From Arcanobacterium canis (lineage in GTDB: Bacteria > Actinomycetota > Actinomycetes > Actinomycetales > Actinomycetaceae): a stretch of DNA of 64,000 nt. Location: NCBI RefSeq assembly GCF_029625435.1, contig NZ_CP121208.1, positions 434,001-498,000 of the forward strand, read 5' to 3'. Every line of letters begins with the position of its first letter. Within the stretch, counting starts at the first letter, position 1. Position numbers and translations under genes: made by a program. Below, one piece after another: positions 26,545-33,933 of this stretch. The notes under the pieces were generated by a model. The model searched no databases, was not told where the DNA came from, and saw only the letters and a list, made by a program, of their open reading frames with translations.

Positions 26545-30504
<3,960 letters not shown>

Positions 30505-30552: not shown

Positions 30553-30571
30553 ACCATGTAGGTAAAATATT

Positions 30572-30781
30572 GTGTTAGCATCTTCGAAATCGGAGACACA
30601 AAACGTCTATTCCTCAGGGAGGCTTGTTGGAGTATCTGCGACACGGGTGTCTGCGGAGATTAAACAAACTAACTTTCATACGGGTGCGCGTTTTGAGCTG
30701 ACAAATAAGGATAAACGGATTTGCCAAGATGTGAAATGGTCATGGGATCGGTGCAGTAAGCTGTTAACGGTGACACGATAA
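30572..30781 (+). CDS. Possible small protein upstream of the ABC cassette
   Basis: A 69-codon frame starting GTG, ending 22 bp before the ABC ATPase and sharing its AT-rich codon use (TTA, AAA, ACA). The product is polar with two cysteines (KRICQDVKWSWDRCSKL), basic, and has no signal peptide or transmembrane helix. No clear ribosome-binding site precedes the GTG; a TAAAAT lies at 30563-30568. No family recognised. It may instead be an untranslated leader. Confidence 0.3.
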   Translation: MLASSKSETQNVYSSGRLVGVSATRVSAEIKQTNFHTGARFELTNKDKRICQDVKWSWDRCSKLLTVTR

Positions 30782-30803
30782 TCTGAGCGAGAGGCGATGC
30801 TCC

Positions 30804-31535
30804 ATGATCGTGAGAGAAGGCAAGAACCTCCGATTTTCCTATGGCTCCCGTGAAGTCTTTTCTGATTTAAATATTGAACTTCCACGAGGGTTAACTGGAC
30901 TGGTTGGACCCAATGGGGCAGGCAAAACCACTGTTTTGCGCATCTTAGCTGGCATCATAAAGCCGTCATCAGGGTATGTGATGCACGACGGAGAGAAAAT
31001 TCTCTCGGCTCGTTCGCGGTCAGTTCTCCGTCAGAAAACTGGATATCTCCCACAAAATCCGACGTGGACGTCGTTGACTTCTGTTGGAGACTTTGTCGAG
31101 TATTGTTTTCGGATGAATGGCGGTCGCAACGAAGTAAGCCGCGCAGTCACTCTCGCTCTCGAAGCCACGAATGTGTACCAATTGAGAGATCGTAAGATCG
31201 GTCAGCTTTCTGGGGGAGAGCGCCGCCGAGTGTATCTTGCAGGAGCGATTGTTCACAGTCCTGAAGTCATTATTCTTGATGAGCCCACAGTGGGTTTAGA
31301 CCCTGAGCAACGTATCCATTTCCGACAGATGGTGGAAGACCTTGCCACTGAGAGTACGGTTTTACTTTCAACCCATATCATTGAAGACCTCAGCGGAATA
31401 GCTCACGCAATCAGCGTATTAAACGAGGGCAAAGTGATCTGGAATGGCACTGTTGACGCTCTGCGTTCATATGGTGAGGGAGCGAACGGGATGTCCGATT
31501 TGGAAGCGGGGTATCTGTATGTCTTGGGCCATTAA
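30804..31535 (+). CDS. ABC transporter ATP-binding protein
   Basis: A 243-residue single nucleotide-binding domain: Walker A GPNGAGKTT, Q-loop YLPQNP, signature LSGGERRRVYLAGA, Walker B EVIILDEPTVGLDPEQ and H-loop STHI. The type is that of ABC-2 exporters and peptide or bacteriocin immunity pumps. GAGAGGCGATGCTCC precedes the ATG. The next gene starts inside its last codons, so the two membrane proteins downstream are its likely partners. More AT-rich than rpoC or rpsL; probably acquired. Substrate unknown. Confidence 0.9.
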   Translation: MIVREGKNLRFSYGSREVFSDLNIELPRGLTGLVGPNGAGKTTVLRILAGIIKPSSGYVMHDGEKILSARSRSVLRQKTGYLPQNPTWTSLTSVGDFVEYCFRMNGGRNEVSRAVTLALEATNVYQLRDRKIGQLSGGERRRVYLAGAIVHSPEVIILDEPTVGLDPEQRIHFRQMVEDLATESTVLLSTHIIEDLSGIAHAISVLNEGKVIWNGTVDALRSYGEGANGMSDLEAGYLYVLGH

Positions 31536-32673
31536 ACATCTTTGGTTTGTTCTAGCGCTCGGCATCACTGCCGCTCTGACACTCCTGTCCTATTTTCTTT
31601 CATATTCGCAAACCCATATCTCCTATATATGGGAGATTGACTCAGCGTTATCGGTAACCACTATTGTCGCTCCTGTCTTAGCGGGGCTCGCTGCGGTGCG
31701 GTCATGGGTGCAACAATCACGAGCAGAAATCGTATCGAGTTTTCCTGCACGAGGTCAGTTTCTCGCATACGTTGCCGATCCCATCGCGATGTCTGGTGGA
31801 GCTATCTTTGGCTTAGCATTAGCATCTGCAGTTGTTACTGCGATCAGCTTGGCGCACGGTAACGCTTTTGCATGGTTAGCACTTGCTCCTCTACCCGTGG
31901 CAATCGCACATATCATCGCGATGATCTTTTTGGGGGCAGGATTGGGGTATATTTTTCCCTATTTGCTCACCGGACCGCTTGTTGTTATTGCGCTTTATGT
32001 TGCGACTGCCTTCGATGTCGGAGGCTTATCGGTTGCGGGAGATTATGCGGGTGCATCGGTCGAATGGTTGGGGCAGATGCAATATTCGACACGTGCGTTA
32101 CTTTTCCTCCTTGTATCATTTCTTGCTTTCATTATCGGTGGGCTCGCGGTACTCACGGCGAATGCATACAAGAATATGACGCTTTCGGCGATAGGCATTG
32201 TTCTGTTCGTCATGGCTTTCTCTTCGCTATCCCTTCAACGTGATATCCCCCTATGGGAGAGTCGTCCATTCGTATCATGCGCTAACGTAGGCCACTCGGA
32301 TATCAGTATTTGTGTTCCAACCGAACAAAAGCATACGTTGGTTCATATCACTCGAAAGCTTGAAATACCGGTGAATCGCCTTGTGGAGTTAGATCCAAGT
32401 GTGCGAGGGACGAAAGTGACAATACCGGGATCCGTTGGCTTTGGAGACATCCTCACTCCGTCTTCCTTGGACGTTGCGACTGCTGTGAATTTCCTTTGGG
32501 AATTTTCATGTGTATCAAAGATGTCTGACCAGGTACGAGACCAGATACCGGCCGAAACGCGCTTCAAGATGACGGATGCACGAGAAGAAGTCGCACGATG
32601 GTTGCTCGGCGAAAGTGATATCGTTCGAGCTCGCAAGGCCTACATGTTGATGACAAGTGCATGTGACGGCTGA
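31519..32673 (+). CDS. ABC transporter membrane protein with extracytoplasmic C-terminal domain
   Basis: A 384-residue protein starting MSWAIKHLWFVLALG; its ATG overlaps the ATPase gene by 17 bases. About seven hydrophobic segments cover residues 8-235 (for example IAHIIAMIFLGAGLGYIF and LLFLLVSFLAFIIGGLAVL). The last 150 or so residues are soluble and hold four cysteines (VSCANVGH, SICVPTEQ, FSCVSK, TSACDG). The outline resembles ABC-2-type permeases of actinobacterial exporter cassettes with a C-terminal outside domain; no family is claimed firmly. AT-rich codon use. Confidence 0.7.
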   Translation: MSWAIKHLWFVLALGITAALTLLSYFLSYSQTHISYIWEIDSALSVTTIVAPVLAGLAAVRSWVQQSRAEIVSSFPARGQFLAYVADPIAMSGGAIFGLALASAVVTAISLAHGNAFAWLALAPLPVAIAHIIAMIFLGAGLGYIFPYLLTGPLVVIALYVATAFDVGGLSVAGDYAGASVEWLGQMQYSTRALLFLLVSFLAFIIGGLAVLTANAYKNMTLSAIGIVLFVMAFSSLSLQRDIPLWESRPFVSCANVGHSDISICVPTEQKHTLVHITRKLEIPVNRLVELDPSVRGTKVTIPGSVGFGDILTPSSLDVATAVNFLWEFSCVSKMSDQVRDQIPAETRFKMTDAREEVARWLLGESDIVRARKAYMLMTSACDG

Positions 32674-32674
32674 G

Positions 32675-33253
32675 ATGTGGACGTTTGCTAAAATTTGGAT
32701 ACGCATTCCAAGCTTCGTTGCGACTTTAGTGGCAACATTCTTTATTTCTGGAATGGGGGATACGTATTCGCTTGACGTGTTATTCAGATATGAGGCAGAG
32801 TTCGTCCCGTTCTATGTGCTTGTATTCCTCGTGCCTGTCGGTTTTATTCCGAGCTTCACTTCACCAAGTCTTGAGATTGAGGAATGTTTCCCTGTTTCAC
32901 CCCGGTTCCGCTATCGCTTGTTGCTTGTATTATGTGTGCCATTGGCTGCAGTTTTGTGTTTGGCTGCCGCTGTTCCTCTCCTTGGGCTGTCGTTTGGGGC
33001 TTTAGCTATCGCCGCCCGAAATGTTATTGGAGGGCTGGGTATCATCCTTGTCTCAAGGCATTTCTTCTCAATGGAATACTCGTGGGTACTACCAGTGACG
33101 TATGCCGGGCTATGTTGGGTTCTTGGAGTACCAGATTATTCGCAGATCGCCCACTCGTGGGCGCTACCACTTCGTGACGGCTCCGACGTCGTAGCGGCGC
33201 TGAGTTTCTGTTCTGTATACGTGTTGGGCGCGGGTTTTTTTGTCACCGATTGA
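32675..33253 (+). CDS. Multi-pass membrane protein of the ABC cassette
   Basis: A 192-residue protein with about five or six hydrophobic segments (FVATLVATFFISGMG; FYVLVFLVPVGFIPSF; RLLLVLCVPLAAVLCLAAAV; ALSFCSVYVLGAGFFV). Its ATG lies two bases after the previous stop; an upstream ATG at 32657 overlapping that gene is also possible and adds six residues. Probably the second permease subunit. It has no recognised motif and shares the AT-rich base use of the two genes before it. Confidence 0.65.
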   Translation: MWTFAKIWIRIPSFVATLVATFFISGMGDTYSLDVLFRYEAEFVPFYVLVFLVPVGFIPSFTSPSLEIEECFPVSPRFRYRLLLVLCVPLAAVLCLAAAVPLLGLSFGALAIAARNVIGGLGIILVSRHFFSMEYSWVLPVTYAGLCWVLGVPDYSQIAHSWALPLRDGSDVVAALSFCSVYVLGAGFFVTD

Positions 33254-33336
33254 ACGACGCTGGGCATCGCTGTGAGGTTGTCCGATCAACTATTGAAAAT
33301 GTGCCGCACCCCACCTGCAATGGTGAATACATACTT

Positions 33337-33366
33337 TTGACGTTTCGCTCTCGTGGGCATTATTCT
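33337..33366 (+). promoter_or_regulatory. rpsL promoter
   Basis: TTGACG (33337-33342), 18-bp spacer and TATTCT (33361-33366). It lies 193 bp before rpsL and after the ABC cassette, so the str operon has its own promoter. The 305-bp spacer 33254-33558 contains no gene; a second TTGACA at 33366-33371 has no -10 at proper spacing. Confidence 0.6.
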
Positions 33367-33558
33367 TGACAATGGTGCCCGTTCCGGGGGCTTTATGTTG
33401 CCCTGTTTGGAAAGAGTCATTGCCTCCACGCAATGAATTTTTCCAACTTGAAGCCCACGGACGTGATGAGGGGACGGTGTCCCTCTGACCGCAGGCTGAA
33501 GTGAAAAGGGCTTGGCAGGCGGGCAAAACTGACGAAATCATTCGACATAGGAGTAATA

Positions 33559-33933
33559 GTGCCAACTATTCAGCAGCTGGTTCGTAAGGGCCGCTCAAGT
33601 AAGTCGAGTGCATCCTCTACTCGTGCGCTGAAGGGTTCCCCACAGCGTCGAGGCGTGTGCACCCGCGTCTACACCACCACCCCGAAGAAGCCGAACTCAG
33701 CTCTTCGTAAGGTTGCCCGTGTGCGTCTTTCCTCGGGTATCGAGGTCTCCGCATATATCCCAGGCGAGGGCCACAACCTCCAGGAGCACTCGATTGTGCT
33801 CGTTCGTGGAGGCCGTGTGAAGGACCTCCCGGGTGTTCGTTACCACATCGTCCGCGGCGCGCTTGACACCCAGGGTGTGAAGAACCGTTCGCAGGGACGT
33901 TCCAAGTACGGTGCGAAGAAGGAGAAGAAGTAA
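33559..33933 (+). CDS. rpsL: 30S ribosomal protein S12
   Basis: A 124-residue S12 starting at GTG after ATAGGAGTAATA. The streptomycin-sensitive signature is intact: lysines in [16 protein letters not shown] and in the later [15 protein letters not shown] loop. Decoding-centre protein and first gene of the str operon. The stop overlaps the rpsG ATG by one base. Confidence 0.98.

Follow-up and report, generated by a model that had tools for sequence, protein, structure and literature searches.

A three-gene ABC cassette between rpoC and rpsL of Arcanobacterium canis: a possible immunity module orphaned from a secreted antagonist

What is a set of transporter genes doing between rpoC and rpsL? 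This question is raised by a stretch of 64,000 nucleotides from Arcanobacterium canis (genome of 1.87 Mb, one contig), which covers bases 434001-498000 of the genome and which we call the window; the coordinates below are those of the window. An ATPase of the ATP-binding cassette (ABC) type, a permease and a second membrane protein lie there as an island, and we refer to these three genes, and to their counterparts in the same order elsewhere, as the cassette. An earlier note, made from the letters of the sequence, had taken the island for an imported, AT-richer one that resembled antimicrobial-peptide export or immunity genes. We will argue that it is an immunity-type ABC module orphaned from a secreted antagonist, and that it belongs to a module that is mobile among actinobacteria, a reading to which we give a probability of roughly 0.55. 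The argument is built on the composition and order of the module in relatives, on the statistical trace of a secreted gene, on the patchy distribution of the cassette, on its altered base composition, and on its absence from the nearest congener. The anatomy and the patchiness of the cassette are well supported.

The three genes are on the plus strand. The first (30804..31535) encodes an ABC transporter ATPase, as judged both from its profile score (PF00005, 101.1 bits against a cut-off of 25) and from its motifs, with Walker A (GPNGAGKT), the signature (LSGG), Walker B and the H-loop all intact. The permease gene (31519..32673) overlaps the ATPase gene by 17 nt, and its product has seven hydrophobic segments followed by a domain of about 145 residues. 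Because of the seven segments and the charge pattern, this tail probably lies outside the membrane; it carries a pair of cysteines (Cys), C254 and C265, that all 10 of the 10 members aligned have in common. The gene for the second membrane protein (32675..33253) starts one base past the permease stop and encodes 192 amino acids with five hydrophobic segments; its residues W148, G151, W162 and A163 are invariant in seven aligned members. All segment counts come from a simple hydropathy scan. The window thus holds first an ATPase, then a permease whose C-terminal domain bears a Cys pair, then a second membrane protein, and the description of three overlapping or abutting genes given in the earlier note agrees with the coordinates of the open reading frames (ORFs) and with hydropathy. 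Neither membrane protein reached the cut-off of any Pfam or NCBIfam model; the permease tail scored 16.2 bits with Imm5_like (PF21805), for a cut-off of 25, and that family was found in none of the relatives searched. A sequence search against solved structures returned nothing informative for either alignment, and the structure predicted for the permease, which came from a three-sequence alignment and had a predicted local distance difference test (pLDDT) score of 44, was left out of the fold search.

These genes differ in composition from the rest of the genome. As a reference we used 216 ORFs (at least 150 codons, the longest non-overlapping ones), a few of which may be spurious, taken from 20 evenly spaced stretches of this genome, 300 kb in all. 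The guanine plus cytosine fraction of the three genes is 0.494-0.495 against a reference mean of 0.551 (percentiles 3.7-4.6), and their codon typicality falls at percentiles 1.4-2.8. The codons that had been singled out from the sequence deviate as claimed: TTA makes up 18.0% of the leucine codons of the cassette against 4.4% in the reference, ATA 14.3% of the isoleucine codons against 3.2%, AGT 14.3% of the serine codons against 7.5%, and CGA 31.0% of the arginine codons against 14.6%, so that TTA and ATA are each in excess by about fourfold. Because the genome-wide ORFs also differ from the cassette, the contrast goes beyond the highly expressed rpo and rps genes.

Comparison of the locus across relatives, as the earlier note had proposed, places the cassette in one of nine genomes of the genus, that of the window itself (coded G000 in this comparison). 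The nearest congener, G002, whose rpoC is 97.7% identical to that of the window (85.5-87.1% for six other congeners), does not have it: DNA similarity between the two breaks off at the end of rpoC and returns at 33296, and the rpoC-rpsL spacer of G002 measures 413 bp, in which the sole ORF of at least 90 codons is an antisense one of 91 codons. This presence in a single genome, the atypical composition and the nearest congener without the cassette all support the idea of an imported island, which we infer to have arisen by insertion rather than by loss in the congeners.

Outside the genus, the relatives of the cassette are few and scattered. With the window permease as query, two of 118 other genomes gave a match, G071 (E 1.7e-16) and G093 (E 7.5e-4); the latter was discounted, as its ORFs show a membrane protein of a different ABC transporter. 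The second membrane protein of G071 was also matched by the window protein alone (E 3.5e-11). Among 213 genomes of the family, a three-row permease profile matched five and a profile of the second membrane protein matched seven, own genome included in both cases. The succession of ATPase, permease and second membrane protein was found in G071, G035, G566, G055, G033 and G065. A fourth gene is often present: a secreted protein precedes the three others, in the same order, in G071, G055, G033, G514 and G641, and also in Actinomyces naeslundii NCTC 10301, whose four genes overlap one another or leave almost no gap. A profile built on three of these secreted proteins (G071, G055, G033) matched 10 of the 213 family genomes, own genome absent. 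At the level of the order, a ten-row permease profile matched 23 of 238 genomes, some weakly, and 20 of them lie outside the family. We examined 14 such outer loci, namely 12 of those 20 and two phylum-level matches: the ATPase adjoins the permease in all 14, the second membrane protein is present in 8, and a secreted protein lies upstream in 7 (E<=0.01), one of which (L161) was chosen via its secreted protein.

All four genes also occur on two Streptomyces plasmids (one of S. californicus, one of S. longhuiensis), where each product but the ATPase is annotated as "hypothetical protein". They were found with the permease of a relative, G443, as query, and the same plasmid search with the window permease gave no match. 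Transposition genes accompany two of the cassettes: in G641 (L103) these are a TniQ gene (45 bits) together with an ORF resembling TniB that narrowly misses its cut-off, and on the plasmid of S. longhuiensis (L165) an annotated TniQ and an IS5 transposase. The plasmids, the TniQ neighbours and the presence in one of nine genomes of the genus fit an antagonism module. In an even sample of 396 genomes of the phylum, the secreted profile matched one and an early permease profile two, the own genome among them; the module therefore seems to be rare. The cassette is assigned to an unnamed family, which is defined here through its gene order and its profiles. In an unrooted tree, the window ATPase clusters with its counterparts from G566, G071, G035, L154 and L150 (local supports 0.82-0.85), with a local support of 0.09 for its place next to G566; five ATPase paralogues of the own genome, which stand together (0.999), fall inside the cassette tree, and for this reason the tree leaves a single clade of cassette ATPases unproven.

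The secreted partners, just upstream of the ATPase, are mostly of about 150-180 amino acids (about 150-165 in G071, G055 and G033), with a signal-peptide-like start and a C-terminal Cys pair. The motif C-x(6-8)-D-x-C occurs in 18 of the 20 full or partial members collected. This partner is repeatedly damaged, and related genomes show a readable series, from a full partner to one reduced to its signal peptide, to its C-terminus, or absent. Thus, G566 (L075) has before its ATPase an ORF of 38 residues that is a signal peptide only, together with a permease interrupted by an in-frame stop, and this cassette is another decaying copy; G065 keeps a C-terminal piece; a gene for a UvrD-type helicase sits in the partner's position in G035; and stop codons interrupt the partner in G510 and G519. 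As a side observation, the G566 cassette is followed by an exporter-type ABC gene, and two more precede it by reading.

Where does the window stand in this series? There is no full-length secreted protein with a signal peptide upstream of its ATPase. There is, beside the rpoC hairpin, a plus-strand frame of 70 codons including the stop (30572..30781), with a GTG start and no hydrophobic start or signal peptide, which ends in ..ICQDVKWSWDRCSKLLTVTR and keeps a C-terminal pair of the form CxDVKWxxDxC. Profiles of 16-20 relatives give it modest scores (8.5-13.5 bits), which 0-7 of 5000 shuffled sequences equal and which rank it 1-2 among 7132 six-frame ORFs. A first 15-row C-terminal profile, in which two rows were out of frame, had its score matched by 42 of 5000 shuffles. 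Once the frames were corrected, 2 of 5000 shuffles reached the score of the remnant, or 5 of 5000 when the Cys were held fixed, for a rank of 5 among the 7132 ORFs; adding the two Streptomyces members brought this to 0-4 of 5000 and rank 1-2 over six trims. These corrected and widened profiles omitted G641, L157 and the G519 piece; a profile of all 20 members, which restored these three, the motif-less G641 and L157 included, gave 1-7 of 5000 and rank 1-2 over four trims. The place of the remnant was set beforehand and the profile was not, which makes these statistics somewhat flattering. We nevertheless hold it very probable, from sequence comparison, that 30572-30781 is homologous to the secreted family, and hence that it is truncated at its 5' end.

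Several known systems resemble the cassette in part. In the lactococcin 972 operon (lcn972-orf2-orf3), the two genes that follow lcn972 are proposed to form an ABC immunity system (PMC4055356). The layout of a secreted protein with putative ABC immunity is thus alike; the cassette, however, has three transporter genes, and no lactococcin 972 model appeared among the matches of the secreted relatives (17 searched against Pfam and 16 against NCBIfam, with HMMER filters that hide very weak matches), nor did the remnant match one in either collection. Lactococcin 972 has a solved structure. It was absent from the 50 fold matches listed for the secreted protein, which excludes nothing. LanFEG shares with the cassette a stand-alone ABC ATPase and two membrane proteins, and LanFEG immunity copies without producer genes exist, but the cassette permease differs from that system by its Cys-paired C-terminal domain. 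The C-terminal domains of the permeases of L161 and of both Streptomyces plasmids align weakly with DUF7224 (PF23866), beginning at position 1 of DUF7224 (E 0.069, 0.046 and 0.0074); these three relatives are below the cut-off, the window permease gave no match at E<=1, and no literature match was found for this domain. In the same genus, Arcanocin, a leaderless bacteriocin from an Arcanobacterium metagenome-assembled genome, also comes with ABC transport genes, but it is described as an aureocin A53-type peptide in a locus of other gene content (PMC11580447). The cassette itself is not described in the titles and abstract openings listed for lactococcin 972, for bacteriocins of Actinomyces or Arcanobacterium (in one case 12 of 341 papers), for bacteriocin-associated integral membrane proteins and for immune mimicry; for Micrococcales there was no literature match.

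By analogy with these systems, the cassette may work like bacteriocin immunity ABC modules. A protein secreted through Sec and carrying a C-terminal Cys pair would attack related bacteria from outside; the ABC complex would recognise it, alone or as a lipid-bound complex, at the outer Cys-paired domain, and would use ATP to clear it from the membrane, protecting the producer. The Cys pairs would form disulfides. The secreted gene of the window would have lost its 5' half with the signal peptide, or have come without it, which would leave the remaining three genes as a self-standing immunity-like pump, a shield without its weapon. The earlier guess of antimicrobial-peptide export or immunity is strengthened by relatives in which a secreted protein goes with these ABC genes. 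As most partners have their own signal-peptide-like start, the ABC complex is probably dispensable for their export; immunity fits better, and protection is the simplest role to propose. Expression of the cassette by read-through from rpoBC is possible. From rpoC to the ATPase, a consensus scan of the plus strand shows no promoter-like site, and the hairpin after rpoC has no T-tract, which agrees with read-through but says no more than that. A terminator-like site (33220-33232) lies inside the end of the gene for the second membrane protein.

A number of observations weigh against this reading. No activity is known for any cassette member, and a partner serving as a signal or in cargo maturation would give the same gene order. 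The secreted partners of G641 and L157 lack the Cys motif, and seven of the 14 outer loci have no significant secreted partner (one of them, L160, has an ORF with the Cys motif by eye). The secreted protein exceeds no family cut-off (17 members against Pfam, 16 against NCBIfam), with weak and inconsistent matches; its model, made from two sequences, is all beta and of low confidence (pLDDT 53), and the fold matches are generic beta-sandwiches (best Foldseek E 1.5e-3, best VIA Z 6.7). We assigned it to no family from this search. An 8-row profile gave the remnant 0.7 bits, a score equalled by 1432 of 5000 shuffles, and in pairwise comparisons with seven members 7 to 237 of 500 shuffles did as well. 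The hydropathy scan finds five and six segments in two related permeases. Finally, G553 (L101, 3308-4380) keeps its secreted ORF with the ATPase and permease mostly deleted, which is awkward for the ABC part as the sole immunity; by reading, this ORF is followed by what remains of the second membrane protein, its tail.

Could the cassette rather be a housekeeping or cell-envelope ABC transporter, with the secreted protein as an accessory such as a substrate scavenger, a sensor or an assembly factor? The genes are tightly packed, those of the transporter remain open in the own genome, G065 and G035 with no full partner beside them, several outer loci show no partner, and G553 retains the secreted ORF when most of its ABC genes are gone, all of which would suit such a role. 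Housekeeping transporters, however, are usually conserved within a genus, and this one is very patchy (one of nine genomes), has copies on plasmids and beside transposition genes, and goes with a partner that diverges and is repeatedly broken; we consider this explanation unlikely, if still worth serious consideration. A DrrAB- or LanFEG-type exporter, of general use against drugs or peptides, taken up for the resistance it gives and functionally unlinked to the secreted protein, could be suspected from the scores of the ATPase with the DrrA daunorubicin exporter model (TIGR01188, 149.2 bits) and the lantibiotic-protection model (TIGR03740, 112 bits), but these are far under the respective cut-offs of 312.45 and 309.75 bits, so that the ATPase is placed in neither family; the permease and the second membrane protein match no exporter family, and the linkage to a secreted gene recurs across distant actinobacteria, which makes such an exporter improbable. 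We would give as little credit to a decaying, functionless island retained by chance since a recent acquisition. The truncated partner, the atypical composition, the missing promoter-like site upstream and the lack of a close relative for a selection test would all go with decay, but the three genes, which overlap or abut, keep their frames open over about 2.45 kb, with every ATPase motif intact.

The site itself deserves attention. The left neighbour of the island is rpoC (26545..30504, plus strand), followed at the left edge by a perfect inverted repeat (30512-30530/30535-30553, z -7.9) with a 19-bp stem, a GAAA loop and, as the earlier note had seen, no T-tract. Its pattern occurs at a single place in the genome, even with up to three mismatches allowed, and it is possibly the terminator or a processing hairpin of rpoC. 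Apart from this hairpin and short weak repeats, the borders of the island show nothing resembling a target-site duplication. On the right, the island ends at the conserved promoter and leader region of rpsL (33296..33558, plus strand; rpsL itself, 33559..33933, plus strand), in which the consensus scan finds a plus-strand promoter-like TTGACG-18-TATTCT (33337-33366). This leader is common to the own genome and G002-G008, and partly to G033. About 200 nt of it (33360-33558) are conserved with the same spread, with the blocks GGTGCCCGTTCC, GTTGCC, ACGGTGTC and GCAGGCGGGCA; an Rfam search of this interval gave no match, and it is a candidate ribosomal-protein leader RNA.

The claim that rpoC and rpsL usually adjoin is only partly right: of 30 loci from the family and order, 12 were found to have rpoC no more than 1.5 kb upstream of rpsL, the own locus being among the other 18, so the junction is not rigid. 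In G003-G008 (loci L046-L051) it holds one ORF of 449-468 amino acids, unrelated to the ABC cassette. PAS_3 is above cut-off in the junction proteins of G008 and G005 and slightly under in G006 (three of six scanned), and those of the remaining three congeners match the G008 protein. PAS-type paralogues occur elsewhere in the genus, including in the own genome (G000:C1:116203-117558 and 72262-73614). The contig of G001 ends at the junction, which leaves eight of nine genomes resolved there, in three states: no gene, a PAS-type gene or the ABC cassette. It seems that this junction has received insertions more than once.

If the proposed function is true, these genes would represent a family of proteins that are likely antagonists and have dedicated transporters for immunity; it ranges from Actinomyces naeslundii to plasmids of Streptomyces, and its secreted members are covered by no Pfam or NCBIfam model in the searches made. 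Because the gene pairing recurs, the claim of antagonism is directly testable. Tentatively, and with somewhat less than even confidence, one may extend this to a mobile antagonism system shared by Actinomycetota, in which Sec-secreted, probably beta-rich proteins with a C-terminal Cys pair would each come with a three-part ABC immunity complex that senses the antagonist by an outer Cys-paired domain, and in which orphan copies would be selected as shields after loss of the weapon. The island of A. canis would then clearly exemplify orphan immunity at a junction of core genes.

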